This document shows, in pieces, positions 25,271 through 51,053 of a DNA stretch of 53,310 bases. The notes below the pieces were generated by a model. It saw only the letters and a list, made by a program, of their open reading frames with translations, made no database searches and had not been told where the DNA came from. Position numbers and translations under genes: made by a program. Within the stretch, counting starts at the first letter, position 1, and each line of letters begins with the position of its first letter. Origin of the DNA: a candidate division Zixibacteria bacterium SM23_81 (lineage in GTDB: Bacteria > SM23-81); contig LJUY01000014.1 of NCBI GenBank assembly GCA_001304015.1, forward strand, positions 1-53,310, in the 5' to 3' direction.

Positions 25271-25338
25271 TAGGTTAAGGACACCAGAGATGTTTGCGGG
25301 ATTTGCCCGGCTCTGCTTTCGGAGGTGAACGACATATC

Positions 25339-26839: not shown

Positions 26840-26854
26840 CAAGCCCCCTTTTGT

Positions 26855-26871: not shown

Positions 26872-26898
26872 TAAAAAAGGGCTCTAAGAGACCATGAG

Positions 26899-26941: not shown

Positions 26942-26952
26942 AGGGGAAGGCC

Positions 26953-27153
26953 GTGAAGGTGAAAGTTCAAGTGAGCATCCTACCGGATTCAGGTGATGTG
27001 CAGATCCAGGTGCTGAAATACGATGTGACCTACGATCAGAAACTTCGGGTCGCTCGTTGGCAGCTTCTTCCTGGCCAAGGCGAGCTCATCAGACCGTCGG
27101 TGGCGATCCCGAGGAATTGCCACCTGAGCATCAACATACCCAGAAAGGGGTGA
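26953..27153 (+). CDS. Small hypothetical protein, first gene of EPS operon
   Basis: A 66-residue protein, beta-rich and mildly basic (VKVKVQVSILPDSGDVQIQV at the start, a Pro-Arg-Lys end), with no signal peptide or membrane segment. GTG is chosen as start because GAGGGG lies six bases upstream; an earlier TTG at 26920 lies inside the leader stem. Its stop is four bases before the export-protein ATG, whose ribosome site lies inside this frame's end, so translation is coupled. No family recognised. It may be a small regulatory or structural partner of the export machinery. Confidence 0.55.
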   Translation: MKVKVQVSILPDSGDVQIQVLKYDVTYDQKLRVARWQLLPGQGELIRPSVAIPRNCHLSINIPRKG

Positions 27154-27157
27154 ACAG

Positions 27158-28126: not shown

Positions 28127-28157
28127 GCCCTTTAATTGGGTAAAACATGGGGAAAGA

Positions 28158-29732: not shown

Positions 29733-29763
29733 ACAAGGGCTTCAACTCCGCCGAGAGGGTTTC

Positions 29764-30504: not shown

Positions 30505-30554
30505 AGGCCCCAGCCCTCGTCTCGATCCATCTCTCCGCCAAGGGGCAGAGTTCC

Positions 30555-31502
30555 ATGGCCTTTTTTTTAGTTACAGGGGGAGCAGGCTTTATCGGCTCGC
30601 ACCTGGCCCAAGAGTTGTTGCGCAAAAATCATCGGGTTCGCATTATCGATAACTTTTCCACTGGGCGAAGGGAGAACCTGAATGGCTTTCTCCATAAACT
30701 CGAGTTGGTGGAGGGGGATGTTCGAGATTCAGCAGCGGTCAAAGAAGCCATCGGGGGAGTAGACTACGTGCTCCATCAAGCAGCCCTCTGTTCAGTATGG
30801 AAATCAATTGATAATCCTTTGGAATCCAATGAGGTAAATGTCCAAGGGACCCTGAATCTGCTGGTTGCTGCTCGGGACGCGGGGGTTCGGCGTTTCGTTT
30901 TGGCAAGCTCCTCTTCGGTCTATGGACCTGCGCGGCGTTTGCCGAAGCGTGAGCTGATGAAGCCCAATCCCATCTCTCCATATGCGGCCACCAAGTTGGC
31001 CGGTGAGAAATACTGCCAGATCTTTTTTCACATATACGGGCTGGAGACAGTTTGCCTGCGATATTTTAACGTCTTTGGACCTAGGCAAAATCCCCATTCT
31101 CAATATGCAGCTGTTATTCCGACGTTCATCTTGGCTCTGCTGAACCACAAGTCCCCCACTATTTACGGCGACGGCGAGCAATCCCGGGATTTCACCTATG
31201 TTGCAAATGCCGTGCAGGCGAACATCCTGGCCTGCCTAGCTCGGGGAATTGCCGGCCAAGTGATCAATATCGCCTGCGGAGTTCGGCACACATTGAATGC
31301 CTTGGTAGCTAACCTGCATAACCTTATTGGCGTTGATCTCCCTGCTCAGAACACCGCTGCGAGACCGGGAGATGTTCGGCACTCCCTGGCGGATATTTCC
31401 AAGGCTCAACGGCTCCTGGGATATCGACCCAGGGTTCACTTTGAGGACGGGCTCAGAAGGACGGTGGCCTGGTACAAGAAGGAACACACCAGCGATCCAT
31501 AA
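30555..31502 (+). CDS. NAD-dependent sugar-nucleotide epimerase (WbpP-like)
   Basis: A 315-residue extended short-chain dehydrogenase. NAD motif TGGAGFIGSHL (about 7-17), DNFSTGRREN, the HQAALCSVWKSIDNP segment typical of the WbpP/UDP-GlcNAc 4-epimerase subgroup, SSSVYG, and the catalytic YAATK. RYFNVFGPRQNP and IYGDGEQSRDF appear later. It probably interconverts UDP-HexNAc or UDP-hexuronate donors for the polymer; the exact sugar is not determined. Confidence 0.88.
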   Translation: MAFFLVTGGAGFIGSHLAQELLRKNHRVRIIDNFSTGRRENLNGFLHKLELVEGDVRDSAAVKEAIGGVDYVLHQAALCSVWKSIDNPLESNEVNVQGTLNLLVAARDAGVRRFVLASSSSVYGPARRLPKRELMKPNPISPYAATKLAGEKYCQIFFHIYGLETVCLRYFNVFGPRQNPHSQYAAVIPTFILALLNHKSPTIYGDGEQSRDFTYVANAVQANILACLARGIAGQVINIACGVRHTLNALVANLHNLIGVDLPAQNTAARPGDVRHSLADISKAQRLLGYRPRVHFEDGLRRTVAWYKKEHTSDP

Positions 31503-31555
31503 AACCTTTTCGCTGCTTTCGAAGAGTTTACGGCAATCTTGAGGTGAATGGTGAT

Positions 31556-32383
31556 ATGATCAACGCGCTTTCTGTGGACGTGGAGGATTGGTTCCAGGTT
31601 ACCGCTTTTGAAAAAATCATCCGTCGTGATGACTGGGATACTTGCGAGAGCAGGGTGACCTCCAACGTCCATAAGATTTTGGACATTTTATCCCCTGCTG
31701 GGGTGAAAGCCACTTTTTTCATTTTAGGGTGGATCGCCGAGCGATTTCCGAAACTGGTGGTTTCCATTCGGGACGGGGGACACGAAATTTCCACGCATGG
31801 TTACGACCACAAGTTGATCCTGCTGCAGAACAAGGAGGAGTTTTATCGCGACGTGGCCAAGGCCATTAAGGTGCTGGAGTCTATCATTGGGGAAAAGGTC
31901 ATCGGGTATAGGGCTCCCAGCTGTTCTATCGTCCCGGAGACTCTGTGGGCATGGGAGCAGTTAGCTGAACTGGGCATCCGCTACGATTCCAGCATCTTTC
32001 CGATTAAGCACGATCGCTATGGTGTTGCCGGCCTGCCTCGATACCCCTTTACTGTAAACCTCGGCAATGGGCGGAATCTTGTAGAGTTCCCTCTCTCCAC
32101 AGTGAGAATCATGGGCAAGAATATCCCCATCGCTGGAGGAGGATACCTGCGGCTCTATCCGTACTGGTTTGTCAAGTGGGCGGTGAAACGGATCAACAAG
32201 CGTGGCCACCCAGCGATTTTCTACCTCCATCCTTGGGAGATTGACCCTTTTCAGCCCAAACAGGAAGTCAATTTATTCAAGAAACTCAGGCATTACAGCA
32301 ATATTTGGGCAACGGAAAGCAAGATCAAAGCCCTCATCCAAGATTTCCAGTTCACCACGGTGAGGGAGGTTTTAAACATGTGA
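31556..32383 (+). CDS. Polysaccharide deacetylase of XrtA/PEP-CTERM-locus type
   Basis: A 275-residue NodB-fold protein opening with INALSVDVEDWFQVTAF, the hallmark of the deacetylase subfamily found in exosortase A polysaccharide loci. Further motifs: ATFFILGW, HEISTHGYDH (metal histidines), YRAPSCSI and FYLHPWEIDP. It lacks a signal peptide. The ATG at 31556 is preferred because GAGGTGA is eight bases ahead; a GTG four codons earlier lies inside that ribosome site. No exosortase gene lies in this window, so the XrtA link is by family only. Confidence 0.88.
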   Translation: MINALSVDVEDWFQVTAFEKIIRRDDWDTCESRVTSNVHKILDILSPAGVKATFFILGWIAERFPKLVVSIRDGGHEISTHGYDHKLILLQNKEEFYRDVAKAIKVLESIIGEKVIGYRAPSCSIVPETLWAWEQLAELGIRYDSSIFPIKHDRYGVAGLPRYPFTVNLGNGRNLVEFPLSTVRIMGKNIPIAGGGYLRLYPYWFVKWAVKRINKRGHPAIFYLHPWEIDPFQPKQEVNLFKKLRHYSNIWATESKIKALIQDFQFTTVREVLNM

Positions 32384-32460: not shown

Positions 32461-33630
32461 ATGCGCATCTTGATGATTGCTCCAGAACCCTTTTTTCAAG
32501 CACGGGGGACACCCATCAGCGTTTTGCACAGACTGAGGGCTCTGTCAAGGCTGAAGCTGGAAGTGGATTTAGTCACTTACCACTTGGGTGAAGATGTCCA
32601 TATAGAGGGGGTGCGCGTCTTTCGCATTCCGCGCATCCCTCTGGTTCGGCGAATCAAGGTGGGCCCCTCTTACATAAAACCGTTTCTTGATGTGCTGCTC
32701 TGGTTCAAGGCTTTTGCCATGCTCTCTTCGGACCGTTATGACATCATTCACGCCCACGAGGAAGCGGCCTATTTTTCCGTTCCCCTGGCGGCCATGTTCG
32801 GGGTCAAATTGCTCTATGACATGCACTCGTCACTTCCGCAACAACTTGCTAATTATCAGTTTGCCAACTACGGCGCGGTGGTGAAACTCTTTTCCTACCT
32901 GGAGAAACGGGTCGTTTGCCGAGCTGACTCGGTGATTACCATCTGCCCAGACCTTGAGCGACACGTGGGTCGCCTGAACGGTGGGAACAAGCAGTTTCTC
33001 ATCGAGAACTACGCCGTGGAAGAGCTTCCCGATTCTCGGGAGCACATGGCGGCGGAGTTGAGGAGGAATCTGCGTCTAGAGGAAAAATTGGTAGTGGCTT
33101 ACACAGGCACTCTGGAGCGAAACCAGGGACTGGACCTGTTGATCCGTGGGGCCACAGAAGTATTGGCCGAGTTTCCTGAGACGGTCTTTTTGCTGGTGGG
33201 AGGAAGGCCAGACCAGATGGAGACGCTGCAGAGTTTGGCGGCCCAGCAAGGGGTGGAAAGACATTTCCTCTTCTTGGGTTCTCGGCCACTGGGGGAGATA
33301 CCCGTTTTTCTATACATCGCCGATGTTCTGGTCTCACCTCGCAGTGAAGGAACCAACACACCATTGAAAATTTACTCTTATTTGGCCTCGGGAAGACCAA
33401 TTGTGGCAACGGATTTGCAGACACATCGACAGGTTTTAGATGACCACACGGCAGCACTGGTTCCGCCAACAGCCACTGGCCTGGCCCAGGGGATATGTGC
33501 CCTATTACGAGACAGCTCATTGCGAGAGAGGTTAGGTCGGAGGGGCCAGCAACTGGTGGAGGAGAGATATAGCTATCGTTCTTACCTGGCCAAGACCCGA
33601 GAGGTTTTTGATTATTTAAAAGCCCTTTAG
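32461..33630 (+). CDS. GT4 glycosyltransferase
   Basis: A 389-residue GT-B fold glycosyltransferase. N-terminal EPFFQARGTPISV gives the glycine loop for donor binding, followed by HAHEEAAYFS and YDMHSSLP. The C-terminal Glycos_transf_1 domain has AYTGTLERNQGLDLLI, SPRSEGTNTPLKIYSYLASGRPIVAT (E-x7-E type motif) and a C-terminal coil. AGGAGATCTC precedes the ATG. It adds one sugar to the lipid-linked repeat unit; donor and acceptor unknown. Confidence 0.9.
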   Translation: MRILMIAPEPFFQARGTPISVLHRLRALSRLKLEVDLVTYHLGEDVHIEGVRVFRIPRIPLVRRIKVGPSYIKPFLDVLLWFKAFAMLSSDRYDIIHAHEEAAYFSVPLAAMFGVKLLYDMHSSLPQQLANYQFANYGAVVKLFSYLEKRVVCRADSVITICPDLERHVGRLNGGNKQFLIENYAVEELPDSREHMAAELRRNLRLEEKLVVAYTGTLERNQGLDLLIRGATEVLAEFPETVFLLVGGRPDQMETLQSLAAQQGVERHFLFLGSRPLGEIPVFLYIADVLVSPRSEGTNTPLKIYSYLASGRPIVATDLQTHRQVLDDHTAALVPPTATGLAQGICALLRDSSLRERLGRRGQQLVEERYSYRSYLAKTREVFDYLKAL

Positions 33631-33681: not shown

Positions 33682-35568
33682 ATGTGCGGCATATGTGGCC
33701 AACTGTATTGTGACCGCCATCGAAGGGTGCAGGCGGACACCATCGAGAAGATGTGCCAGAGCATCGCCCACCGGGGCCCCGATGACCAGGGGGTTTTCGT
33801 CTCTGGGAACCTGGGTCTGGGCAGTCGGCGGCTCAAGGTCATAGACCTGGAGACCGGCCACCAACCTATGAGTAACGAAGATGGGAGCGTGTGGATTGCT
33901 TTCAACGGCGAGATTTACAACTACCGTTCTTTGACAGAGACGCTCAAGAAAAGGGGGCACCGCTTTCAGACCAAGAGCGACACCGAGTCTATCCTGCACG
34001 CCTATGAAGAATTCGACGTGGCCTGTTTGGAGAAACTCAACGGAATGTTCGCTATGGCGATATGGGATGCTCAAAAGCAGCGGCTTTTGCTGGCCCGGGA
34101 CCGTCTGGGCATCAAACCCCTCTATTACTATTTCGACGGAGAGAAGTTAGTTTTTGGCTCCGAACTGAAGTCGATTCTCCAGGCACCGGGAATAGAGAGG
34201 TCGGTGGACTTGGTGGCCCTGAATAACTATCTGACCTTTGAGTATATTCCCAGCCCGCGGGCTATCTTTGAGAAGATGCACAAACTGGAGCCGGGACATT
34301 ATCTAACTTGGGACGGAAAAAAATTGGTCAGACATCCTTACTGGCAGCTCCTGGTTCAGCCTCAATCTCAAGAAGATGCCAACGGGCGCCTACGAGAGCT
34401 GATGGCCGACGCGGTGAACATGCGCTTGGTCTCCGACGTTCCCCTAGGAGCATTTCTCAGCGGGGGCATCGACTCCAGCATCGTGGTGGCCCTGATGGCT
34501 CAGTTGGTGGACGAGCCGGTGAAAACATTCTCCATCGGCTTCAAAGAATCTTCCTACAACGAGCTGGAATACGCTCGGGCAGTGGCCACACGGTATGCCA
34601 CCGACCATCACGAGTACGTCATTGAAGCCAACGCCCTGGAGTTGACGGAGAAGCTCATCGCTCACTTCGATGAACCCTTTGGGGACTTCTCCATCTTTCC
34701 CACCTACTTGGTTTCAAAGATGGCCCGCGGCGACGTCACCGTTGCTTTAACGGGGGATGGGGGAGACGAGCTGTTCGGGGGCTACGATACCTATCTGGCC
34801 CAGAAATTCGATCGTCGGTTTTACCACTGGTTACCGAAACTCCTGAAAACGAGGGTCATGGATTCCTTGGCCGATGGATTGGCTCCCCGGGAGGCCAAAA
34901 AAGGGCCGGTCAATATTTTCAAGCGATTTATCCAAGGGACGCGACTTCCATCTGATCTGTCTCATGCCCGCTGGATGGTCTTTCTCACGGAACAGGAGCG
35001 GTCCTGCCTCTTCTCTCCAGATGTGTGGCATCAGCTAGCCCGGAAGGATCCGTATGATTTTCTCCGCCGCCACGCTCAGGATGCGGGACAGGTTGACCAA
35101 CTGAGCCGCTCCGGTTATGTGGACGTGAAGAGCTATTTGGTCGATGATATCCTGGTCAAGGTGGACAGGATGAGCATGGCGGTTTCCTTAGAGGTTCGGG
35201 TGCCCTTTTTGGATCACCGAGTGGTGGAACTGGCCTTTACATTGCCTCCTAATATGAAAATCCACGGCTGGCAAACCAAGTTCTTGCTGAAGCAAGCCAT
35301 GGCCGATCTCCTTCCACCGGCCATTCAGAAAAGGGATAAGCAGGGATTCAGCATTCCCATCAAAACCTGGATTCGCGGAGAGCTGCGACCAATGATGACC
35401 GATCTGCTGGCCGAGAGCCGCCTGAGGCGGGAAGGTTTTTTCAACAGCTCCTGGGTTTCCAGGCTGGTCTCTGAGCACCTTCAAGGTGTTGAGAACCATA
35501 GTCACAAACTATGGGCACTAATGGTGTTTGAGAGCTGGTATCAGTCTTACATGGAGAGTGCACAGTGA
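33682..35568 (+). CDS. AsnB-type glutamine amidotransferase/synthetase
   Basis: A 628-residue asparagine-synthetase-like protein of the kind found in XrtA/EPS loci. The glutaminase domain is intact: MCGICGQ with nucleophilic Cys at position 2, RRLKVIDL, FNGEIYN and KSDTESIL. The synthetase domain has SGGIDSS (260-266), FSIGF, DEPFGD, GDGGDELFGGYDTY and a late K.DKQGFSIPI. It probably amidates a carboxyl group on a sugar (for example a hexuronic acid) using glutamine and ATP, rather than making asparagine. Its TGA overlaps the GTG of the next gene. Confidence 0.92.
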   Translation: MCGICGQLYCDRHRRVQADTIEKMCQSIAHRGPDDQGVFVSGNLGLGSRRLKVIDLETGHQPMSNEDGSVWIAFNGEIYNYRSLTETLKKRGHRFQTKSDTESILHAYEEFDVACLEKLNGMFAMAIWDAQKQRLLLARDRLGIKPLYYYFDGEKLVFGSELKSILQAPGIERSVDLVALNNYLTFEYIPSPRAIFEKMHKLEPGHYLTWDGKKLVRHPYWQLLVQPQSQEDANGRLRELMADAVNMRLVSDVPLGAFLSGGIDSSIVVALMAQLVDEPVKTFSIGFKESSYNELEYARAVATRYATDHHEYVIEANALELTEKLIAHFDEPFGDFSIFPTYLVSKMARGDVTVALTGDGGDELFGGYDTYLAQKFDRRFYHWLPKLLKTRVMDSLADGLAPREAKKGPVNIFKRFIQGTRLPSDLSHARWMVFLTEQERSCLFSPDVWHQLARKDPYDFLRRHAQDAGQVDQLSRSGYVDVKSYLVDDILVKVDRMSMAVSLEVRVPFLDHRVVELAFTLPPNMKIHGWQTKFLLKQAMADLLPPAIQKRDKQGFSIPIKTWIRGELRPMMTDLLAESRLRREGFFNSSWVSRLVSEHLQGVENHSHKLWALMVFESWYQSYMESAQ

Positions 35569-36591: not shown

Positions 36592-38127
36592 ATGAGTAAA
36601 CGGCCCTTCAAGGTGGTGTTGGCCGTTCCGCCAGGGGGATATTTGGCGGAGAGATGGGCTCAGGGGCAGATGATGCCGGCTCTGGGGCTCTCCTATTTGG
36701 CGGCGGTCCTGGAACAGGAGAAGGTGGAGGTTCAGTTGCTCCCCTGCCATGTTCTGGGACTGTCCTGGGGGCAGATCAGAGAGGAAATCGCCCGGGACAA
36801 GCCAGACATGGTGGGAATCACCACGACCACAGAGAACAGATTTTTCAGTTTCCGCCTGGCCGAGATCGCCAAAGAAGCCCATCCTCCCGCATGTGTTGTT
36901 CTCGGCGGGCCGCATATGAACGCCACCGCTAGTGACACCCTGATCCATATGCGGGCTGTGGATGTGGTCGCCCTGGGTGAGGGGGAGGATACCATCGTAG
37001 ACCTGGTCAAGGCCATGCGGGAAGGGGGGCATTTGAGCAAGGTCCCGGGACTCGCCTATCGGGATGGAGAGAATGTGGCGATGACCCCTCAAAGACCTCT
37101 TATCCCGGATTTGGACCGACTTCCCCTGCCCGCTCGGCACCTGGAGCCCTGGGACCGCTACAACTGTCGCATGGATGTTCCCGGGGAGGGAATCCTCCCG
37201 GCGGCAAACATGATGACCAGTCGCGGCTGTCCCTTTTCGTGTAATTTCTGCGCCACGCCAACGAATTGGGGCAGAAAGGTGCGAGGTTTTTCGCCAGAAC
37301 GTGTTCTTTCGGAATTAGAACATCTGGTTCAACGGTATCAAGTTCAGGTGGTTTGGTTTTACGACGACACCTTCAACTACAATCCGCAGCGGTTGGATCG
37401 GATCTGCGATCTGTTGGTGGAGAGGAATCTGGACATCAAATGGTACTGTGAAATTCGTGTCGATCTGCTGGACAAAGCCTCTTTGGAGAAGATGGTTCGC
37501 TCGGGCTGCTACTATTTGGGTTTTGGGGTGGAGACGGCCTCTGAGCGCATTAGCCGAGAGATCATCGGGAAAAAAGCGAGTCTAAAAAAGGGCCTGGAAG
37601 TAATCGATTGGTGCCGAGAGTTTGGGATCACCGCCAATCCCTTCTTCATATTTAGCCATCCCACGGAAACGTGGTCAGAAGCTGTGCAGACCATGGAAGT
37701 CATCGAGGCCATCAAGGATCGTTGTGATGTGAGCGCTTCCATCCTTCACGTGTACCCCGGAACTCCTTTGGAGGTGCGGGCCAGAAGAGAGGGCCAGCTT
37801 CCTCAAGATTTTTCATGGTCTTTGAGAAATTTCAAGCACGTCATCGTGATCCCGGCAGCCCAAGGTCATGTTCCTCTCTACAAGGATCAGCTGACCTGGT
37901 CCCAGATCTGCGAGCTGATGTTGCGGTTTTCCCAATCCACTAAGAAGATCTCTTTGCTCAAGAAAGTTCCCAAAGTTTTGAAAAGCCTATACTCTCTGGC
38001 CGATGTGAGAAGATATCTGATCATGCTGTGGGTCTTCCTCCTTTTGAAGGCGTCCCGGATATTCGGCTCATCTGGACGGACTTTCGGCCGGCAATCCAAA
38101 CCCAGCTTGAGGGTGACGACGCCATGA
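36592..38127 (+). CDS. B12-binding-domain radical SAM protein
   Basis: A 511-residue class B-like radical SAM enzyme. N-terminal cobalamin-binding-type Rossmann domain (about 10-150: LGLSYLAAVLE, MVGITTTT, VVLGGPHMNA, ALGEGEDTI), then SRGCPFSCNFC giving C213, C217 and C220, FYDDTFNYN and GVETASE. The basic C-terminal region after 430 is hydrophobic near 470-485 and may associate with membranes. Family members do methylations or rearrangements. It overlaps the start of the epimerase gene (ATGA). Confidence 0.87.
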   Translation: MSKRPFKVVLAVPPGGYLAERWAQGQMMPALGLSYLAAVLEQEKVEVQLLPCHVLGLSWGQIREEIARDKPDMVGITTTTENRFFSFRLAEIAKEAHPPACVVLGGPHMNATASDTLIHMRAVDVVALGEGEDTIVDLVKAMREGGHLSKVPGLAYRDGENVAMTPQRPLIPDLDRLPLPARHLEPWDRYNCRMDVPGEGILPAANMMTSRGCPFSCNFCATPTNWGRKVRGFSPERVLSELEHLVQRYQVQVVWFYDDTFNYNPQRLDRICDLLVERNLDIKWYCEIRVDLLDKASLEKMVRSGCYYLGFGVETASERISREIIGKKASLKKGLEVIDWCREFGITANPFFIFSHPTETWSEAVQTMEVIEAIKDRCDVSASILHVYPGTPLEVRARREGQLPQDFSWSLRNFKHVIVIPAAQGHVPLYKDQLTWSQICELMLRFSQSTKKISLLKKVPKVLKSLYSLADVRRYLIMLWVFLLLKASRIFGSSGRTFGRQSKPSLRVTTP

Positions 38128-39104
38128 GGGTGTTGGTGACGGGTGGCACGGGATTTGCTGGCAGTCATCTGTGTAAGAGGCTTATTGACAATGGATACCA
38201 GGTGCGAGCCCTGGTTCGAGATCCTCACCGAGCCGATCTCTTGGCCCAATGGGGCGCGGAGCTCGTCTGCGGAGATCTTCGGAATCCGGAATCTCTGAAA
38301 CGCGCCCTGAAGGGTGAGGAGGTGGTGTATCATGTGGCAGCTGTTTTCCGGCGGGGGGATCTATCCCCTAAGGAGATGTGGGCGACCAACGTCACCGGTA
38401 CGAAAAACATCCTCGAGGCGGCGGAGAAAGCAGGCGTTCGGCGTTTTGTCCATTGCAGTACAGTGGGGGTTCATGGTGAGATCACAAGGGGCCCGGCCAA
38501 TGAGGAGTCTCCCTACCGACCCGGCGACGCTTATCAAAAATCGAAAGTGGAGGGGGAGCGGATCGCTTTTTCTTATATGGAGAGGGGACGTCTGCCCATT
38601 GTGGTGTTTCGCCCAGGTGGGATCTACGGACCCGGTGATTTGAGGTTTCTGAAACTCTTTAAGGCCATTAAAAAAGGTCGCTTTGTGATGCTCGGTTCCG
38701 GGCGCGTGCTGTATCAGCTAATTTACATCTCTGACCTCATTGATGGCATACTACTTTGCGGCACCAAAGATCAGGCCTTGGGTAAGGTTTTCATTTTGAC
38801 GGGAGAGGAACCCATCACTTTGAATCACTTCGTGGAGGTCATCGCCAAGACTCTGGGCGTTTCCATCCCCCGACTGCGGATCCCCGTGGCTCCGGTTTAT
38901 GGGACCAGTCTGCTCTGCGAGCTTCTCTGCCGACCCCTGGGAGTGGATCCTCCCCTGCATCGACGCAGGATCGACTTTTTCAGGAAGTCCAGGTGGTTTG
39001 ATATATCCAGAGCGAAGAGGGAGCTGGGTTTTCGACCCAAGACGGATCTGACTACGGGCATCGAGTGCACCGCAGCTTGGTATAGAGAGCAAGGCTATTT
39101 ATAA
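38124..39104 (+). CDS. NAD(P)-dependent epimerase/dehydratase
   Basis: A 326-residue extended SDR protein. Motif TGGTGFAGSHLCKRL near the N-terminus, VYHVAAVFRRGD, CSTVGVHG, catalytic Y-x3-K in YQKSKVEGE, and FRPGGIYGPGD. The overall pattern resembles the HpnA/3-beta-hydroxysteroid-dehydrogenase-like SDR branch rather than GalE. The frame is open further upstream, but ATG 38124 is preferred: it overlaps the upstream stop and has GAGGGTGACG ahead. Likely a sugar-nucleotide or lipid ketoreductase/epimerase in the pathway. Confidence 0.86.
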   Translation: MRVLVTGGTGFAGSHLCKRLIDNGYQVRALVRDPHRADLLAQWGAELVCGDLRNPESLKRALKGEEVVYHVAAVFRRGDLSPKEMWATNVTGTKNILEAAEKAGVRRFVHCSTVGVHGEITRGPANEESPYRPGDAYQKSKVEGERIAFSYMERGRLPIVVFRPGGIYGPGDLRFLKLFKAIKKGRFVMLGSGRVLYQLIYISDLIDGILLCGTKDQALGKVFILTGEEPITLNHFVEVIAKTLGVSIPRLRIPVAPVYGTSLLCELLCRPLGVDPPLHRRRIDFFRKSRWFDISRAKRELGFRPKTDLTTGIECTAAWYREQGYL

Positions 39105-39133
39105 AAATCATGGAGCGGCTGGAGGATATTTTC

Positions 39134-40363
39134 ATGTCGCGAATTAATGTGCTGTGGGTCATCGATCATGTCTGCTACGACGGCAGCCTTCATGGGGGGG
39201 GACGGCTTTACTGGAACGTGGTTCCGAAGTTCGATTCGCGGCGATTCCATATCATCCCCTGCTTTTTGCGAGCAAGCCCAGTGCTGCGTCAAGTCTTCGC
39301 CAAGAGCCCAGCGCCGGTGAGGATTTTGGAAAAGAGTAAGTTCGATATCACCACCATATGGACCTTGCTGCGTCTGATTCGAAAAGAACGCATTCATGTG
39401 ATGCATTTGCACTGCTATGGTTCCTCCTCCTTTGGCCGCGTTGCTGGATGGATTGCCGGTGTGCCGACCATCGTTCACGATTATGACACCGAGGTCTATT
39501 TCCCGTACCCCTGGTATCTGTGGATTGTGGATCGGGTCTTGGCTCCAAAAACCAGCGGAGCGGTGGCTGCCTCTCCTATGGTGCGCGACTACGCTATCAG
39601 GGCGAGAAAATTGGCGCCAAACAAAATTAGAACGATGTTCCACGCCGTGCCGCGGGAGAAATACCATCCCGTTCCAAGTGAGAAGATTGCGGCTGTGAGA
39701 CGTCAGCTGGGAGCCGGCAATGACACCAAGATAGTGGGTACCGTGACGAAGCTGGGCCCGCAGAGGGGGAACGCCTATTTGCTGAGAGCGGCTCAAAAGA
39801 TCTTGATGCAGCACCCGGATGCGTTGTTTTTGCTGATTTATAAGGTCACCATATACCATCGCGATCCCAGCAGGAAATATGTGGCCAGTCCCGACGTTAC
39901 AGTTGGAGAAGAAAGCCTGGAGGGTTTGAAGGCTTTGGCCCGGGAGCTGGGCATAGAGGAAAAGGTTCGCTTCGTCGACTCTTGGGATCAATCGGATGAG
40001 CTTATCTCCGCCATGGATCTCATGGTGATGCCCTTTCTCAGCAAGAGGTTTTCCTCGGTGAAGCTTTTGGAAGCAATGGCCATGGGAAAGACAATCGTCG
40101 CCACCAGGTTGGGGGAACAGCGGGAGATTATACAAGATGGAATCAACGGATACTTGGTGACAGCAGGGGATGTATCCGAACTGGCTTCTAAGATCTCACA
40201 GGTTCTGGCCCACCCGCGAGAATTGGACAAGCTCAGTTGTGGGGCCAAAAAGCTGTCTCAGAAGTACAGCGTCGACAGTTATGTGCAAACCCTGCAGGAT
40301 TGGTATGCCGAACTGGCGGCTCCCGCACTCATCAAGTCCGCTGATAGGGGAAGCTGGGAATGA
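39134..40363 (+). CDS. GT4 glycosyltransferase
   Basis: A 409-residue GT-B glycosyltransferase. N-terminus NVLWVIDHVCYDGSLHGGGR, then HVMHLHCYGSSSFGR and VHDYDTE. The C-terminal domain has VGTVTKLGPQRGNAYLL, FVDSWDQSDELISAMDLMVMPFLS and KLLEAMAMGKTIVAT (the donor-binding E.x.E region is partly altered). ATG 39134 is chosen because GGAGG lies nine bases upstream; an ATG eight codons earlier is possible. Its stop overlaps the following AsnB-like start (ATGA). Confidence 0.88.
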   Translation: MSRINVLWVIDHVCYDGSLHGGGRLYWNVVPKFDSRRFHIIPCFLRASPVLRQVFAKSPAPVRILEKSKFDITTIWTLLRLIRKERIHVMHLHCYGSSSFGRVAGWIAGVPTIVHDYDTEVYFPYPWYLWIVDRVLAPKTSGAVAASPMVRDYAIRARKLAPNKIRTMFHAVPREKYHPVPSEKIAAVRRQLGAGNDTKIVGTVTKLGPQRGNAYLLRAAQKILMQHPDALFLLIYKVTIYHRDPSRKYVASPDVTVGEESLEGLKALARELGIEEKVRFVDSWDQSDELISAMDLMVMPFLSKRFSSVKLLEAMAMGKTIVATRLGEQREIIQDGINGYLVTAGDVSELASKISQVLAHPRELDKLSCGAKKLSQKYSVDSYVQTLQDWYAELAAPALIKSADRGSWE

Positions 40364-42246
40364 TTCTGGGCATCTGGCAGGATGATAAATCAGGCGACCA
40401 GCTCCGGGAAGATTTGTCGGCAGCCATGTCGGTGGCCTGGTCTGGCAAGGTTCCCGAGTCAGCTGCTCTATGGGCCGATAACGGTTTGGCTTTTTGTTGG
40501 ACACCCCTTCAGCTGGAGACCATGGACGAGTTGCCTCAGCCTGTTATGAATCAAGATCAGATGGTGGTTTTGTTGTTTCAGGGAAAAATCTATAACTTGG
40601 TGGAGTTGCGGAAACACCTCGGCTTCCAGCGGCATTTTCAAACGAGCTCTTCAGGTGAAGCTTTGGTTCACCTTTATGCAAAACGGTCAGAGAACTTCTT
40701 GGAGCGAGTGAACGGCAAATTCGCCTTTGCGCTGTGGGATCGGAAGTCGCACACCCTGTTGCTGGGGAGAGACCGTTTGGGCATCGAGCCGATGTTTTAT
40801 CATCAAAACGGCCCCAGGCTTGTCTTCAGCACTTCTTTGAGAGCGCTTCTAGATATGGGCTGGGTCGACAAGAGCCTGAACTACCAGGCAATATTGCAGT
40901 ATCTGCTGTTTTGTTATAATCCCGGACAGGAAACCTTCGTTCGTGGGGTCCATAAATTGCCAGCAGGATGCCTTCTGAAGGCCCATCGTGCCAGAACCTC
41001 TGTGGAAAGATATTGGCGATTGAGCTTTGCCGAGACGCAGGCAAAGAGCGAAAAGCGTTATGGAGAGGAGATTCTGGACCTCATCCGGGATGCCGTTCAG
41101 GTTCGCGCTGAGCCCGATGACGCTCCGGGGATTTTTCTGAGCGGCGGGACAGACTCCAGCACCTTGGTGAGCTTGGCTTCGCGTATATATAACCGGCCGT
41201 TGCGCACTTTTTCTTTCCGTTGTCGAGGCAAGTCCTTCGATGAATCCCGCTACGCTCGCTTGGTGGCGGAACGCTACGGAGCGAATCACACTGTGGTTCC
41301 CTTTGATGCCCAGCGAGTTGTTCTTATTTCCAAGGCTGTGGAGTGTATGGACGAGCCTTTCTGCGACATCGGGATTGAAATAGGAACCTATCTTCTGGGT
41401 CAGGCCGCTGGAGGGCAGGTGTCATATGTTTTTAGCGGAGAGGGGGGTGATGAGGCCTTCGGAGGGCACCCCGTTTATCTAGCCGATAAGGTGGCAGCTC
41501 TTATAGACGTCATACCCAAGGTTTTGCTGCGACCCCTGACGTGGAGTTTGCAGCGTCTTCCAGACAGCGACCAGAAGAAAAACTTGCAGGTGAAAGCCAA
41601 ACGTTTTGCTTTCAGCATATCTTTTCCCCGAGAGCTTCTCAGCCACCGCTGGAGGACTTACTATACTTTTGGTGATATACAGCGATTGTGCAGTGAGGAA
41701 TTCTTGCGTCATTGCGATACGGATGAGATGTTCGCGGACATTCTGCGGTATAACCGTGAGGCGGACGGACGGGACCAATTGAGCCGGAGCCTGTACAGCG
41801 ATTATTGGACCCTGGTCGATTTCTACTTGAGAAGGCTACAGCTGTTGAGAGCTTTTTCGGTGGAAAGCCGGTTGCCCTTATTAGATTATCGTTTGGTGGA
41901 ATATGCTGCTAAGATGCCTTCTTCAACGAAAGTCCGGGGATTCACCGAGACCAAATATATCTACAAAAAGGTGTTGAATGGGGTTATTCCCCATGAAATC
42001 CTGTATGGACGGCCAAAGCTCGGCCACAGCGTTCCCCTGAAGAACTGGCTGCGAGAAGACAACCAGGTCAGGCAGTTCCTCATGGATCACATCTGTCAGG
42101 GGCTGTTCCGGGAAAGGGGCTTCTTTCGGGATCAAGCCATTGGCAGGATGGTGGACGAGCACACCAGAAGAGTTGACAATCATTCTCATCGACTCTGGGG
42201 CCTGTTGGTCCTGGAGCTATGGTTGAGAGCCCATATAGACGGATGA
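40360..42246 (+). CDS. AsnB-like synthetase lacking a functional glutaminase site
   Basis: A 628-residue asparagine-synthetase-fold protein whose N-terminal domain keeps the fold (KIYNLVELRKHLG, LGRDRLGIEPMFY) but not the chemistry. It starts MILGIW instead of MCGI, so the nucleophilic Cys is gone. The glutamine-binding NGE of the sister protein is QGK, and the aspartate in KSDTE is missing (SSSGEA). The synthetase half is intact: FLSGGTDSS (SGG from about 261), FSFRC, DEPFCDIG and GEGGDEAFGGH. It may use ammonia, an amine or an internal nucleophile, like beta-lactam and carbapenam synthetases, which also lost the Cys. It is followed by a carbamoyltransferase. Confidence 0.88.
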   Translation: MILGIWQDDKSGDQLREDLSAAMSVAWSGKVPESAALWADNGLAFCWTPLQLETMDELPQPVMNQDQMVVLLFQGKIYNLVELRKHLGFQRHFQTSSSGEALVHLYAKRSENFLERVNGKFAFALWDRKSHTLLLGRDRLGIEPMFYHQNGPRLVFSTSLRALLDMGWVDKSLNYQAILQYLLFCYNPGQETFVRGVHKLPAGCLLKAHRARTSVERYWRLSFAETQAKSEKRYGEEILDLIRDAVQVRAEPDDAPGIFLSGGTDSSTLVSLASRIYNRPLRTFSFRCRGKSFDESRYARLVAERYGANHTVVPFDAQRVVLISKAVECMDEPFCDIGIEIGTYLLGQAAGGQVSYVFSGEGGDEAFGGHPVYLADKVAALIDVIPKVLLRPLTWSLQRLPDSDQKKNLQVKAKRFAFSISFPRELLSHRWRTYYTFGDIQRLCSEEFLRHCDTDEMFADILRYNREADGRDQLSRSLYSDYWTLVDFYLRRLQLLRAFSVESRLPLLDYRLVEYAAKMPSSTKVRGFTETKYIYKKVLNGVIPHEILYGRPKLGHSVPLKNWLREDNQVRQFLMDHICQGLFRERGFFRDQAIGRMVDEHTRRVDNHSHRLWGLLVLELWLRAHIDG

Positions 42247-42327
42247 GTTGCGGGAAAGAAGAGTTTTGAGTTCAATTTCCACGGGAACCAGCTAGGCTGG
42301 GAGGCAAGCGAAAAGAGGAAAAAAGTC

Positions 42328-44070
42328 ATGAAGATTTTGGGAATCGCCGATGGCATGACCGGTGGCACCGCTCTCGTCGAAAATGGCAAAGTGGTCTACG
42401 CCATCCATGAAGAACGTTTGATGAGAGCTAAAATGGCCACGGGTTTTCCCCGGCGGGCCATCACTCAGATCCTCCAGGATACCAATACCGCACCTGAGGA
42501 AGTAGACGCCGTGGCCGTGGCCACTATCCACGAGTATTTCGTGGAGGAGGCCGAAGGCTACGATGGGTGGCTACGAAAAGACCAGGGTCCGATAAAGGAG
42601 GCGATGCTGAGCATCTCCGGGATGATCCCGCGGTATTTTGGGGCTCGGCCTTTCATGAAGCGCTCTTACTACAATTTCAAATCCTTTTTGGCCAAGGGGA
42701 GGCGCAAGGCAATTCCGGAGCTGCTGAGACGAGACTGGGGGTTACAATGCCCCGTTCACTTCATCGATCATCACTTCGCCCACGCTTGCTCGGCCTATTA
42801 TACCGGTGGACTGGACAGGGCGACCATCATCACCATGGACGGTGCTGGAGATCACTGTTGCTCTCATGTATACTTGGCCGAGGATGGGAAATTCAGCAAG
42901 TTCTGCAGCCTGGATAGCTTTGATTCCATCGGCAATTACTATGCCTATGTGACCCACCTGTGTGGTTTTAAAGCTCAGAAACACGAGGGCAAGATCACTG
43001 GGCTGGCCGCCTATGGGCAACCTCATTATGCCGACATCATCAAGAGATTTATTAACTTTCAGAACGGCAAAATCACCAACAGCGGCCAGGTCTTCTATTG
43101 GTCGGCCGTTAAGGCCATGCTGCGAGCCCTGCCAAATCCGTACAGCAAACAGGATCTGGCCAGCAGCATTCAGCAAGTTCTTGAAGATGTGGGAGGTGCT
43201 TACGCTCGATACTGGGTGGAAAGGACCGGATGTGGCGATGTGGCCCTGGCTGGTGGGGTATACGCAAATGTCAAGCTGAACCAACGGATCCACGAGCTGG
43301 ACAACGTGAATTCCGTCTTCATTCACCCGGGCATGGGAGATGAGGGTTTGGCTGTGGGAGCCGCTTTGGCCTTAGCAGCGGACAAGAACGGGAACTCTCA
43401 GGAGAAATTACGCCCCGCAAAGTTGCGCGATGTCTATTTCGGGCCTACCTATTGCGAGAAGGAGATTGAAGAGGAGATCCGACGCGAGGGACTACAAGCG
43501 GAATATCTTCGCGGGATCGAGGAGAGGATTGCCCAGCTTCTGGCCAAAGGCCACGTGGTGGCTCGTTTCGATGGCAGGATGGAATATGGCCCCCGGGCCT
43601 TGGGAAACAGGTCTATTCTCTATCAGCCCACGGATCCCTCGGTGAACGACTGGCTGAACAAAAGGCTCCAGAGGACTGAGTTCATGCCCTTTGCTCCGGT
43701 GACCCTGGTGGAGTATGCCAACCAGTGCTATGTGAATATGGACGGCGGGAGATATCCCGCAGAGTTTATGACCATCACATTCGATTGCACCGATTGGATG
43801 AAAAAGCATTGCCCAGCAGTGGTCCATGTGGATGGGACGGCCCGGCCACAGACCATCGATAAGGCCACCAATCCCAGCTACTACAAGATCGTCGATGAGT
43901 ACCGTAAGATCACCGGTCTGCCCACCATCATCAATACTAGCTTTAACATCCACGAGGAGCCCATCGTCTGTACACCGGCCGATGCCATCCGAGCTTTTAA
44001 GATCGGACATCTGGATTACTTGGCCATGGGAAATTTCCTCATCGCCAGCAAGGATAATGTCCGCCGATGA
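42328..44070 (+). CDS. Carbamoyltransferase (NodU/CmcH family)
   Basis: A 580-residue O-carbamoyltransferase, which moves the carbamoyl group of carbamoyl phosphate to a hydroxyl of a sugar or antibiotic through carbamoyladenylate. N-terminal Kae1-like part: MKILGIADG, HHFAHACSAYY (metal histidines), TMDGAGDH, GKITGLAAYG and AGGVYANVKLNQRI. C-terminal part: DGRMEYGPRALGNRSIL, F.PFAPVTL and LPTIINTSFN.HEEPIV. Length is normal. GAGGAAAAAAG precedes the ATG. It implies a carbamoylated sugar in the polymer or a linked glycolipid. Confidence 0.92.
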   Translation: MKILGIADGMTGGTALVENGKVVYAIHEERLMRAKMATGFPRRAITQILQDTNTAPEEVDAVAVATIHEYFVEEAEGYDGWLRKDQGPIKEAMLSISGMIPRYFGARPFMKRSYYNFKSFLAKGRRKAIPELLRRDWGLQCPVHFIDHHFAHACSAYYTGGLDRATIITMDGAGDHCCSHVYLAEDGKFSKFCSLDSFDSIGNYYAYVTHLCGFKAQKHEGKITGLAAYGQPHYADIIKRFINFQNGKITNSGQVFYWSAVKAMLRALPNPYSKQDLASSIQQVLEDVGGAYARYWVERTGCGDVALAGGVYANVKLNQRIHELDNVNSVFIHPGMGDEGLAVGAALALAADKNGNSQEKLRPAKLRDVYFGPTYCEKEIEEEIRREGLQAEYLRGIEERIAQLLAKGHVVARFDGRMEYGPRALGNRSILYQPTDPSVNDWLNKRLQRTEFMPFAPVTLVEYANQCYVNMDGGRYPAEFMTITFDCTDWMKKHCPAVVHVDGTARPQTIDKATNPSYYKIVDEYRKITGLPTIINTSFNIHEEPIVCTPADAIRAFKIGHLDYLAMGNFLIASKDNVRR

Positions 44071-44248: not shown

Positions 44249-45019
44249 ATGAACAAAATTAAACAGGTTCAGAAATATTGGGATGAATATACCACCGAAA
44301 TACAAACTCAATTTACAAGCAAGGAATTAGGATCCAGGGAGTATTTTCAAGAAATTAAGATCCATCATGATAAGGCCTATGCCCTTAGCAATCAGATATT
44401 AGACATCCCCAACCTGACAGGCAAATCGGTCCTGGAAGTTGGGTGTGGGATAGGATTGGATGCATTAGAATACGCCAAACATGGAGCTCGTGTAACAGCT
44501 ATTGATCTCTCTCCAATTTGTATAAATCTTGCCAAAAGGTATTTTTCATATAACAATTTGAACGGAGTTCTAAGAATTGGTAATGCTGAACAACTGCCTT
44601 ATGAGGACAATGAATTTGATGTGGTCGTAGCGAGGCAAATTCTTATGTTCACGCCGGACCCTCAAAAGGCGGTTGATGAAATGCTCCGAGTTCTCAAGCC
44701 CGGTGGGGAGGCCGTTGCCCTGTTGCATAATAGGCACTCCTGGTATGCTCTATTGGGAAAAGTAACCGGGACGAATTTGGTAGCCCAAGCCAAGGATCCA
44801 CCTGTGAATACACTTCATTCGATAAAGGAAGCAAATCAGATGTTTCAAAAATTCTCAGTGGTGAAAATAATATTAGACAAGTTTCCTTCTAAAACCAAAA
44901 GGCGTACAGGCGTTTTAGCACGATTGTACAATCTCGCGTTTATTCCTGTCACGAAAATCATTCCCACAAGGATCATAAAACCTTTCGGGTGGTATATCAT
45001 TATCAAGGCTATAAAATAA
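44249..45019 (+). CDS. Class I SAM-dependent methyltransferase
   Basis: A 256-residue Methyltransf_11-type protein. Motif I VLEVGCGIGLDALEYAKHGA (about 70-90), acidic AIDLSP, motif II NAEQLPYEDNEFDVVVARQILMF, then EMLRVLKPGGEAV. The C-terminal 60 residues are basic and end in a hydrophobic stretch, possibly membrane-associated. The DNA here is clearly more AT-rich than the upstream EPS genes (a 60-base sample near 44300 is 38% GC), and this gene is the first of that section. The ribosome site is weak. Confidence 0.85.
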   Translation: MNKIKQVQKYWDEYTTEIQTQFTSKELGSREYFQEIKIHHDKAYALSNQILDIPNLTGKSVLEVGCGIGLDALEYAKHGARVTAIDLSPICINLAKRYFSYNNLNGVLRIGNAEQLPYEDNEFDVVVARQILMFTPDPQKAVDEMLRVLKPGGEAVALLHNRHSWYALLGKVTGTNLVAQAKDPPVNTLHSIKEANQMFQKFSVVKIILDKFPSKTKRRTGVLARLYNLAFIPVTKIIPTRIIKPFGWYIIIKAIK

Positions 45020-45064: not shown

Positions 45065-45838
45065 GTGGAACGGGAAATAAAAGAACATACCTTTATGACT
45101 CGGAAAAGGCTTTTTAGCCAGGATACATCTGCTATACAAAAATACCAGGAGTTAGTCGTAGGACAGAAGGGATTATTCAAGCTTTTTAAATATGAATTTA
45201 TCTTCTTGCTGTCAAGTTGGATTCCGGGAGCCCTGGGGCTCTTTCTGAGGAGCAAGCTTTATCCATTACTGTTGGGAAGGGTAGGGAAGGGGGTAATTTT
45301 CGGGCGAAATGTTGTCCTCAGATATCCTCATAAAATATTTCTGGGAAATAACGTTATCATTGACGATAACTGCCTCATAGATGCCAAGGGGCGCGACAAC
45401 CATGGGGTTGTGATTGGCGACAATGTTTTCGTTGGAAGGAATACCATTTTGCTATGTACGGATGGAGATATTTTTATTGAGGATAATGTGTCCATAGGAT
45501 TCAATAGCGAAGTGATGTCGGCCAACTACGTGAAGCTTGGGAAAAATGTGCTCATATCCTCTTACTGCTTTTTAAATGCCGCAACCCATGATTTTCAAAG
45601 AACGGATATCGCCGTCTCACAGCAGGCAAGCATAGGAAGAAAGATAGTTTTAGAAGAGAACGTCTGGTTAGCTGCGAATGTCACGGTACTCGATGGGATC
45701 ACTGTGGGGAAGGATGCTATTGTGGGCGCGGGTGCCGTCGTGACCAAGGACCTTCCCCCACTCTCAATAGCTGTTGGCATGCCCGCAAAGGTTATCAGGA
45801 GCAGGAAGTCTGAAGGGGATGAAATTGAAGCTATTTGA
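45065..45838 (+). CDS. Left-handed beta-helix acyltransferase
   Basis: A 257-residue hexapeptide-repeat acyltransferase of the WbbJ/LbetaH kind. A helical N-terminus (1-75) is followed by many I/V/L-G-x4 turns (VIFGRNVVLRYPHKIFLGNN, VVIGDNVFVGRNTIL, IFIEDNVSIG, VSIG...), the catalytic-type histidine in AATHDF, and the closing VGAGAVVTKDLPPLSIAVGMPAKVI. It acetylates or otherwise acylates a sugar. GTG start with GGAGAGGGA ahead. Moderately AT-rich. Confidence 0.87.
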   Translation: MEREIKEHTFMTRKRLFSQDTSAIQKYQELVVGQKGLFKLFKYEFIFLLSSWIPGALGLFLRSKLYPLLLGRVGKGVIFGRNVVLRYPHKIFLGNNVIIDDNCLIDAKGRDNHGVVIGDNVFVGRNTILLCTDGDIFIEDNVSIGFNSEVMSANYVKLGKNVLISSYCFLNAATHDFQRTDIAVSQQASIGRKIVLEENVWLAANVTVLDGITVGKDAIVGAGAVVTKDLPPLSIAVGMPAKVIRSRKSEGDEIEAI

Positions 45839-48845: not shown

Positions 48846-49850
48846 ATGCGCAATCTTAGCAAATACTTAAGAATAGTTTTCAGCGTAATTTTAATCTATG
48901 TTATTTTAACAAAGGTGAATTTGGGTGAAGTTATTGCGCTCTTTCATCAAATTACACTGCATTACTTAGTCCCTATTTTGCTCTTCTTTGTGTTTGAAAA
49001 GGTGGTTGAGGCCTATAAATGGAATTTGCTCTTAAGAGCAAAGCATATATATATTCCTTTCATGGAGATGTTTAAAATAACCTATATCGGCTCTTTTTTG
49101 GGTTTTGCTCTGCCATCGGCCATTAGCGTCGATCTTATCAGGGGATACGGATTGTACAAACACTTATCGGGCAGGGAAGAATCAATATCTTCAGTGATAG
49201 TGGATAGGGTCCTGTCTCTTAGCGTGTTAACGACTCTGGCCATTGTCAGTATTATTTTATCCTCAATTTATACTACCATAGATAAAGACATAATACGATC
49301 CATTCTTCTACTATTAGGAGTGTTTTTAATCCTATGGATACTATTGGTTGTCGTAGCCCTTGTGAAGCAAAACACTATCTGGGAGATAATTGAAAATCGA
49401 TTTAGGAAACTTAAAACTAACGTCATATGGATAAAGGTGAAGAAACTACATCGCTCTCTTCAAGAGTACAAGGTTCATCAATTAACTCTGCTTAAGGTCG
49501 GTGCTCTATCTGTTGCCATTAACGTCAGCCGCATTTTGCTCTTCTATTTGGTCTCCTTATGCTTGAGTTTGAAAATACCTTTGGTTTACTTTTTAGTTTT
49601 CATTCCGGCGATCCAATTAATTACCAGATTGCCGATCTCTATTGGCGGGATAGGAGTGCGAGAAGGCGGCTTTGTGTATTTTTTCTCCAAAGTGGGATTT
49701 CCCTATTCACAGACCTTTGCAATACCGTTCTTAGTGTCGATTCTCGTCATTTTGTCTATCCTTCCAGGGGGAATTATATACGCCACAGCGGGTTTTTCAT
49801 CTCACAGAGATCAAGTCTCTCATCCAGCACAAGACGGAGTCCCCAAATAA
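48846..49850 (+). CDS. Flippase-like membrane protein (LPG synthase TM / UPF0104)
   Basis: A 334-residue polytopic membrane protein of the same family as the one at 12419-13369. Signatures: a first helix with ILIYVILTKVNLGEV, EAYKWNLLL, SFLGFALPSAISVDLIRGYGLY, VDRVLSLSVL, and RLPISIGGIGVREGGFVYFF near the C-terminus. About eight hydrophobic segments. Very AT-rich (33% GC in a 60-base sample near 48930), so not a recent duplicate of the other copy. Probably acts on a lipid-linked intermediate of this locus. Confidence 0.85.
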   Translation: MRNLSKYLRIVFSVILIYVILTKVNLGEVIALFHQITLHYLVPILLFFVFEKVVEAYKWNLLLRAKHIYIPFMEMFKITYIGSFLGFALPSAISVDLIRGYGLYKHLSGREESISSVIVDRVLSLSVLTTLAIVSIILSSIYTTIDKDIIRSILLLLGVFLILWILLVVVALVKQNTIWEIIENRFRKLKTNVIWIKVKKLHRSLQEYKVHQLTLLKVGALSVAINVSRILLFYLVSLCLSLKIPLVYFLVFIPAIQLITRLPISIGGIGVREGGFVYFFSKVGFPYSQTFAIPFLVSILVILSILPGGIIYATAGFSSHRDQVSHPAQDGVPK

Positions 49851-49880
49851 ACTTCTCCGCGTCTCTTGAAAAGTGATATA

Positions 49881-51053
49881 ATGAGCGTCCTAGAGAGCAA
49901 ATTCAGAGCTGCTCAAGATGAAATCCGGAACTTCATGAAGTGCTATCCTGATTTTGTCATCAAGTCACGGGTCGCGGCTCTTAAAGGGGAAATACCAGTA
50001 TTTGCCTTTCATTCCATCGATCCCGTTGTCTTTCAAAAACAGTTGGACTACCTTGAAGAAAACGGTTACAGAACTTTGTCCATCGAAGAGTATCTTCTGG
50101 GTCTGGGCGGCGAGAAGAGAAGCTCTTCTGAAAGCGTTCTATTGACCATAGACGATGGTCGACAGAGCGTTTGGAAACATGCCTTTCCTCTTCTGAAAAA
50201 ATATGGGATGAAGGCAGTTGTGTTTGTTCTCCCTGGGCATACCAAGGCGGAGAACTCGCCAACTCATTTTGAAGCGCAATGCTCCGCTGTGCAAAAAAGA
50301 GATGAGCAGGAACCTCTCTTGAGCTGGGAGCAATTGAGGACTATGCATTCCAGCGGATTGGTTGATATACAATCTCATACGTTATATCACCATCTTATCT
50401 ATGTCAGTCCAAAGATTACAGGAGTCTATGTCTCAAGCACTCGTGGTCCCTTTTATACTCTTCCCGTCCCGAAGGAATTCGAGGGCAGCATCGATCTTGA
50501 TACGTGGGATATGCTGTGGGGTATGCCTATTTATGAGTTTCGGCCATTGATGACAGGGCAACCGAGATATCTTGACGATCCATCATGTCGAAAGGCCTGC
50601 CGGAGCCATTACGAAGAATATCTCCAAGGCAAAAAAGGCGCTGTGGTCAAAAAAGATATGGCCGCATTTCTGCGAAAATACGTGAGCAAGTATGGAATTG
50701 GGGGGCGGGTCACGACCCTTCAAGAGGTGCGCAGTGAAATGACCGAGAGTTTAAGTAGGTCTAGAGAGCTTATCGAAGAACATCTTCCAGGTCATCGTGT
50801 CATGGCTGTCTGCTGGCCCCATGGGGCCTTTTGTGATCAGGCCATTGATTTCGCCAAGGAAGCGGGCTATCAGGCCTGCTTGTGCGGGACTCTCCCGGGA
50901 AGGAAAAGCAACCGGGTGGGTGACAATCCTTTTTTGACGGTGCGCCTGAAGAACGACTACATCTTCCGCCTGCCCGGCGAGGGCAGGCGGAGTCTGGGCT
51001 CAATTATGGCTAAAAAGATGGGCCGAAGGCTCCGGGGAGAAACAGGATATTGA
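49881..51053 (+). CDS. Polysaccharide deacetylase-like protein
   Basis: A 390-residue NodB-fold protein with an insertion. A short N-terminal helical region is followed by IPVFAFHSIDPVVFQKQLDYLEENGYRTLSIEEYL, VLLTIDDGRQSVW (catalytic/metal Asp pair), KAVVFVLPGHT, and VDIQSHTLYHH with metal histidines. A long insert (about 185-270) precedes AVCWPHGAFCDQAIDFAKEAGY. This is the layout of extracellular or lipid-linked glycan deacetylases of the PgaB-like branch, but no signal peptide is visible. The ATG at 49881 is taken; a TTG five codons earlier is possible. Confidence 0.82.
   Translation: MSVLESKFRAAQDEIRNFMKCYPDFVIKSRVAALKGEIPVFAFHSIDPVVFQKQLDYLEENGYRTLSIEEYLLGLGGEKRSSSESVLLTIDDGRQSVWKHAFPLLKKYGMKAVVFVLPGHTKAENSPTHFEAQCSAVQKRDEQEPLLSWEQLRTMHSSGLVDIQSHTLYHHLIYVSPKITGVYVSSTRGPFYTLPVPKEFEGSIDLDTWDMLWGMPIYEFRPLMTGQPRYLDDPSCRKACRSHYEEYLQGKKGAVVKKDMAAFLRKYVSKYGIGGRVTTLQEVRSEMTESLSRSRELIEEHLPGHRVMAVCWPHGAFCDQAIDFAKEAGYQACLCGTLPGRKSNRVGDNPFLTVRLKNDYIFRLPGEGRRSLGSIMAKKMGRRLRGETGY

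Follow-up and report, generated by a model that had tools for sequence, protein, structure and literature searches.

What could an AsnB-like enzyme do once the residues of its glutaminase site have all gone while its synthetase motifs remain in place? The question is raised by the gene at 40360-42246 of a stretch of 53,310 nucleotides from candidate division Zixibacteria bacterium SM23_81 (assembly GCA_001304015.1, contig LJUY01000014.1, forward strand; the whole stretch is called the window below), which lies in an exopolysaccharide (EPS) locus together with a second, canonical AsnB. Our answer is that this Cys-less protein is probably an acyl-activating ligase that acts on a glycan carboxylate, needs ATP but no glutamine, and uses a nucleophile other than glutamine-derived ammonia. 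The two genes, and the two segments of the first of them on which the argument turns, are as follows.

40360..42246, plus strand: Cys-less AsnB-like synthetase, 628 amino acids, with a GATase_7/6 relic at residues 1-227 and an Asn_synthase domain at residues 238-623.
41452..41469, plus strand: end of the GEGGDEAFGGH motif, residues 365-370; Glu365 is kept and His370 replaces the Tyr of the Glu-Tyr dyad.
42007..42051, plus strand: RPKLGHSVPLKNWLR region, about residues 550-564, placed from the translation; Lys553 is kept and His556 replaces a Phe.
33682..35568, plus strand: canonical AsnB paralogue with MCGICG, NGE and KSDTE; TIGR03108-like (671 bits, below the cut-off of 816.9).

Both domains of the Cys-less protein are recognised by Pfam (PF00733 at 237 bits, with a gathering threshold of 21, and PF13537 at 101 bits). 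A first-pass annotation of this DNA had read the N-terminus as MILGIW in place of MCGI, the NGE motif as QGK and the Asp of KSDTE as absent, with SGGTDSS and GEGGDE kept and an intact paralogue at 33682. Alignment with that paralogue, which is indeed canonical, and with further relatives bears out each of these observations, KSDTE having become SSSGE, and adds the loss of the Arg of GSRR (here WTPL); the Cys, Arg, Asn, Glu and Asp of the glutaminase site are thus all gone. The DNA of the GEGGDEAFGGH motif was matched as GGAGAGGGGGGTGATGAG...GGGCAC at 41437-41469. The reservation entered at the time, that a sequencing error at 40360 might conceal an MCG, can be dismissed: the gene opens with ATG ATT CTG GGC ATC, from which no single base change gives MCG, and a Cys at the nucleophile position is found in none of the 40 orthologues introduced below (two start with MWCG, in which the Cys is one place off), so that the loss is far beyond chance or sequencing error. 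No MCG is hidden upstream either, because only four in-frame codons separate the start from a stop; the ATG itself overlaps the stop of the upstream glycosyltransferase gene (ATGA, 40360-40363). By PF00733 and the PP-loop SGGxDSS the protein belongs with the AsnB-type ATP-pyrophosphatases, as do 39 of the 39 family members scanned, and by its want of the Cys, Arg, Asn and Asp it falls outside the class II glutaminases, the Arg, Asn and Asp columns being unconserved in the orthologues. Since it nevertheless passes the cut-off of TIGR01536, glutamine-hydrolyzing asparagine synthase (304.9 bits, cut-off 267.1), a model matched by all 39 Cys-less proteins scanned, automated pipelines would give it that name in error.

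How widespread is this form? We searched 386 genomes spread over the domain and then 82 genomes of the phylum to which one top-hit genome belongs. In the spread set the best matches reached at most 382 bits and 38% identity, and the ones inspected proved to be canonical MCGI enzymes, except for one degenerate, poorly scoring protein (L031); the His motif was seen at an AsnB in the window genome only, and two additional matches to the pattern appear to be fortuitous. An exact-peptide scan of the contig collection returned no relative of the protein, a DNA-pattern scan of the collection gave other AsnBs only among the matches listed, and the viral contigs held no AsnB with the His motif. Within the single phylum, which is not that of the window, 45 of the 82 genomes encode orthologues (40-47% identity, 386-633 bits); in these genomes the canonical copies attain at most 37% identity and 403 bits, and the two groups are therefore separable by identity. 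The loci of 40 of these 45 genomes were read, which, with the window protein, makes a family of 41. A phylogeny of Cys-less AsnB proteins and their neighbours had been called for by the first-pass annotation, and it yields a monophyletic family with a shared locus: in the tree of the synthetase domain all 41 proteins form one clade (support 0.999) apart from the canonical partners, with the window protein inside it at a weakly supported position (about 0.6). A recent duplication of the 33682 paralogue was considered and rejected, the two paralogues falling in separate clades.

The two halves of the Cys-less protein have fared very differently. Across 27 genomes that carry both paralogues (351 genome pairs), identity is 0.31 in the N-terminal half versus 0.53 in the C-terminal half of the Cys-less protein, compared with 0.60 and 0.62 in the partner AsnB; the resulting ratio is 0.58 versus 0.96, and in every one of the 351 pairs the Cys-less protein has the lower value. 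Its N-domain has 15 columns with at least 90% conservation and that of the partner has 81; for the C-domain the numbers are 105 and 146. Among close pairs the ratio of non-synonymous to synonymous substitution rates (dN/dS) is 0.06-0.12 for the C-domain, much as in the partner AsnB, and mostly 0.12-0.24 for the N-domain, with one pair at 0.04. As judged from these comparisons, constraint has been lost in the glutaminase half and purifying selection on the synthetase half is strong; since both halves are under such selection, the gene is not decaying. We conclude that the Cys-less AsnB is a real, conserved enzyme variant and apparently an undescribed one; we found no paper on Cys-less AsnB in polysaccharide loci in the open-access literature searched.

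What the synthetase half has kept, and what it has changed, is strikingly uniform. All 41 members retain S261, G263, D265, S266, E365, K532 and K553; Asp364-Glu365 is invariant or nearly so, and position 504 is Arg in 38 members and Lys in three. Equally invariant are H370, H556, R287 and C288, positions at which 28 of 28 partner AsnBs have Y, F, G and F. The family thus lacks the Glu-Tyr dyad of AsnB, whose Tyr follows the Glu of the DE motif at a distance of five residues. Of 154 other AsnB relatives compared, 152 retain this Tyr; L268 has His and L031 has Thr instead, and both of these are likewise devoid of the catalytic Cys. In the AsnB relative PesC the dyad, Glu363-Tyr368, is needed for carboxylate activation or proton relay (PMC13060819), and His370 would, mapped by spacing, occupy the place of Tyr368. 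As a side observation, L268:3141-5027 is a Chloroflexi AsnB-like protein that starts with MSGIFG (Cys to Ser), sits in a housekeeping-like neighbourhood and, apart from its His at the dyad Tyr position, is missing the usual RPKxGF segment. The predicted structure of the window protein is confident (predicted local distance difference test score, pLDDT, 87.8; predicted template modelling score, pTM, 0.90) and retains the fold of the N-domain; its best matches among solved structures are TsnB9 (Z 34.1), AsnB (Z 30.5) and beta-lactam synthetase (Z 28.8).

How, then, might such an enzyme work? The C-terminal domain would bind ATP and adenylate a carboxylate, the best candidate for which seems to be a uronic acid, carried by a sugar nucleotide or lipid-linked glycan that the locus itself produces. 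The nucleophile attacking the adenylate would have a source other than glutamine hydrolysed by the same chain; an amine is the most likely one and would give a substituted amide. The Glu365-His370 pair, at the place of the Glu-Tyr dyad, would probably be the proton acceptor for that nucleophile, a role that we assign to His370 by conjecture. The glutaminase half would persist as a fast-evolving structural scaffold and the partner AsnB would make an ordinary primary amide, that is, a uronamide. We propose such a division, with a canonical AsnB for the primary amide and a Cys-less enzyme for another nucleophile, because TIGR03108-like AsnBs are relatives of the WbpS-type enzymes that convert a uronic acid to its amide in P. 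gingivalis (PMC7468200), because a uronamide-containing oligosaccharide is the product of a glycan locus in Bordetella that includes an AsnB-like gene (PMC12407052), and because sugar dehydrogenases are at hand: a UDP-sugar (nucleotide-sugar) dehydrogenase is encoded in 14 orthologous loci, and the nucleotide-sugar dehydrogenases of the window genome are located outside the locus. Glutaminase loss, the kept ATP site, the invariance of the changed residues, purifying selection and the conserved locus are the parts of this proposal that are read from sequence. Uronic acids with substituents in amide linkage are already known as chemical entities. The earlier suggestion that the locus employs two ATP-pyrophosphatases accordingly stands in part: one is glutamine-dependent, the other, in the same EPS locus, is glutaminase-dead and probably uses another nucleophile, and it is the O-carbamoylation said to follow that finds no support. 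More specifically, an AsnB-derived ligase might join a uronic acid carboxyl to an amine other than ammonia through Glu-His, beside an AsnB that makes primary amides, which would be a new function; we advance this tentatively, as a possibility against which the chances still lean. With similar reserve we suggest that the amine could be an amino acid, an amino sugar or another compound, and that the partner AsnB could amidate another residue.

Several facts weigh against the proposed ligase. The assignment of its substrate rests on gene neighbourhood, and the orthologous loci share no amine-supplying gene. Other near-invariant residues of the AsnB C-domain are altered too (positions D493, M497 and P255). 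In PesC, replacement of the dyad Tyr with Phe abolished activity (PMC13060819), and the change from Tyr to His may therefore mean a different reaction or a lost one. Finally, the analogy with TsnB9 set out below is a partial one, since TsnB9 keeps a working glutaminase-type domain.

Could the enzyme simply be an ammonia-dependent amide synthetase that makes a primary amide from free ammonia, or from that of the canonical AsnB in a mixed complex? The partner is encoded nearby in most of the loci read, the fold of the N-domain is kept, and AsnB relatives can use free ammonia, as PesC does (PMC13060819). Still, a His in all 41 members at a position so nearly universally Tyr elsewhere points to an altered nucleophile or proton path, and two paralogues with primary amides as products would duplicate each other unless they acted on different substrates; we regard this explanation as unlikely, albeit one to be reckoned with. 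The loss of the entire glutaminase site, together with the altered dyad Tyr and several other changed near-invariant residues, might also be taken to mean that catalysis is gone and that the protein serves as a regulatory or scaffold subunit of the canonical AsnB or of a membrane glycosylation complex. However, the family shows little or no variation in SGGxDSS, Asp364-Glu365, Lys532 and Lys553, the C-domain has a dN/dS as low as in the partner, and retention of an ATP site would be unexpected in a pure scaffold, all of which makes a pseudoenzyme improbable. As for outright decay or an assembly error, to which the degenerate N-terminal half might seem to point, the chance is negligible given the intact frame of 628 codons, the same losses in 40 orthologues from many families and the purifying selection. 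The sporadic pseudogene without synthetase residues that the first-pass annotation had envisaged is the opposite of what was found, namely a form conserved in a phylum, under purifying selection and with its ATP-site residues kept.

Formation of an intramolecular lactam, in the manner of beta-lactam and carbapenam synthetases or lasso peptide cyclases, appears very improbable to us. Those enzymes, too, are without glutaminase activity, the fold matches that of beta-lactam synthetase (the Z of 28.8 given above), and the lasso cyclase model gives a score for every member; but the scores of the window protein lie far under the cut-offs (190.7 bits versus 525 for lasso cyclase NF033535, 59.7 versus 300 for macrolactam cyclase NF033561), and neither lactam-antibiotic nor precursor-peptide genes were seen in the loci. 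Beta-lactam synthetase has a Tyr at the position of AsnB Glu348 in a Tyr-Glu dyad, a dyad change unlike that of the Cys-less family. In the alignment with E. coli AsnB, Glu348 corresponds to Glu361 of the window protein and to Asp in the 40 orthologues, with no Tyr in any member, and that arrangement therefore appears to be absent from the family, in which the diagnostic change lies elsewhere, at His370. The analogy with beta-lactam and carbapenam synthetases drawn in the first-pass annotation is thus a weak one.

We thus return to the proposed ligase and to the locus on which the choice of its substrate depends, the genes of which, other than the two AsnBs, are listed here.

32461..33630, plus strand: GT4 glycosyltransferase (Pfam), upstream of AsnB; homologue in 26 of 40 loci.
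38028..39104, plus strand: NAD-dependent epimerase/dehydratase; 32 of 40 loci, 49-57% identity.
39110..40363, plus strand: GT4 glycosyltransferase, overlapping the Cys-less start (ATGA); 12 loci.
42328..44070, plus strand: NodU-type carbamoyltransferase (PF02543 and PF16861), the window neighbour of the Cys-less gene.
44249..45019, plus strand: class I methyltransferase, partly conserved; 15 loci.
45065..45838, plus strand: hexapeptide-repeat acyltransferase, 44-58% identity; 28 labelled genes in orthologous loci.
48846..49850, plus strand: LPG_synthase_TM (flippase-like), immediately downstream of the Cys-less gene in 12 orthologous loci.
49866..51053, plus strand: polysaccharide deacetylase (PgaB-like part); 24 loci, immediately upstream of the Cys-less gene in 12.

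In most orthologous loci read, the AsnB partner is 53-64% identical to the window 33682 protein, and a GT4 glycosyltransferase with 43-49% identity to that of the window is likewise found in most; a glycosylphosphotransferase occurs in orthologous loci as well. Given this shared gene set, the window locus appears to be a relative of the orthologous one, extended by radical SAM enzymes and the carbamoyltransferase. The EPS genes of the window are of XrtA type (export protein, chain-length determinant and a DUF3473 deacetylase above its cut-off); positions 23462-32383 hold the XrtA/PEP-CTERM-type EPS genes together with a PEP-CTERM-box-like response regulator, and no exosortase (PF09721) was found in the window genome, which is 92.6% complete. 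In 12 orthologous loci (L426, L427, L429, L407, L410, L411, L415-L417, L421, L424 and L440) proC lies within about 2 kb downstream of the Cys-less gene; as an amine source it was rejected, since no second proC scores above the cut-off in any of the 11 genomes checked, which gives it the look of a housekeeping gene. A glycerol-3-phosphate dehydrogenase-like FAD oxidoreductase (L408:13232-14998 and 16 others) occurs in 17 of 40 EPS loci, often near AsnB and the epimerase, with no obvious polysaccharide role. Elsewhere in the window, the minus strand at 12419-18597 carries a second glycan-like cluster (two radical SAM/SPASM proteins, two GT2 glycosyltransferases, a deacetylase and a flippase-like LPG_synthase_TM), and a PorV-like protein and a beta-propeller with a Por secretion tail at 18717-22502 suggest type IX secretion.

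Does the adjoining carbamoyltransferase belong to the same chemistry? The first-pass annotation was right that the two genes are neighbours, the second being of NodU type, yet the link to O-carbamoylation does not hold: a NodU match, and a weak one, was found in just one of the 40 orthologous loci, and the NodU-type genes near AsnB elsewhere always accompany MCGI-type AsnBs in the loci read. The carbamoyltransferase was accordingly rejected as a functional partner, and the pair is a feature of the window locus, not of the family. In L335, L372, L373, L377, L378 and L379 a NodU-type gene stands beside a radical SAM/SPASM protein, a B12-binding radical SAM protein or both, neighbourhoods that resemble window genes 42328, 36592 and 47646.

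In more general terms, the Cys-less family is a natural experiment on the choice of nucleophile by AsnB, one that couples a dead glutaminase to a two-histidine change in the synthetase site, and it offers a concrete ligase candidate for a glycan modification that may be undescribed. Its signature (GDGGDExxxGHPVY, KDKLGHS and no Cys) makes members easy to find and test.

How do these proteins compare with the systems already known? With E. coli AsnB (PDB 1CT9) they share the fold of both domains, the PP-loop SGGxDSS and the GEG/GDG motif, and they differ from it in the absent glutaminase residues and in having His for Tyr357 and for the Phe three residues after the conserved Lys. The XrtA/PEP-CTERM amidotransferases of TIGR03108 and WbpS type, such as P. 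gingivalis PGN_1234, have the same two-domain architecture and an EPS locus setting, and TIGR03108 is the best NCBIfam model for the window protein, albeit at 368.4 bits versus the cut-off of 816.9 (39 of 39 members scanned match); unlike that type, the Cys-less family has no Cys/Arg/Asn/Asp glutaminase site and carries His370 and His556 for Tyr and Phe. Beta-lactam and carbapenam synthetases (1JGT and 1Q15) are glutaminase-dead AsnB relatives with an amine nucleophile and a matching fold (Z 26-29), but act on small molecules, outside any EPS context. The lasso peptide cyclases (McjC), also AsnB relatives without glutaminase activity, form an amide with an amine (PMC4979651); their systems differ in having a precursor peptide locus, of which none was seen around the 40360 gene. 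TsnB9 (PDB 7YLZ), the best solved-structure match of the window protein, is also that of the canonical 33682 paralogue and scores 170 bits with the family profile: it transfers hydroxylamine in place of ammonia (PMC11160463, PMC6133997), and its N-domain frees the hydroxylamine from glutamyl hydroxamate (PMC11160463), whereas the Cys-less family is without the residues for this. Like the Cys-less family, TsnB9 has a His at the dyad Tyr position, and this His, the only functional clue to His370, is no more than suggestive.

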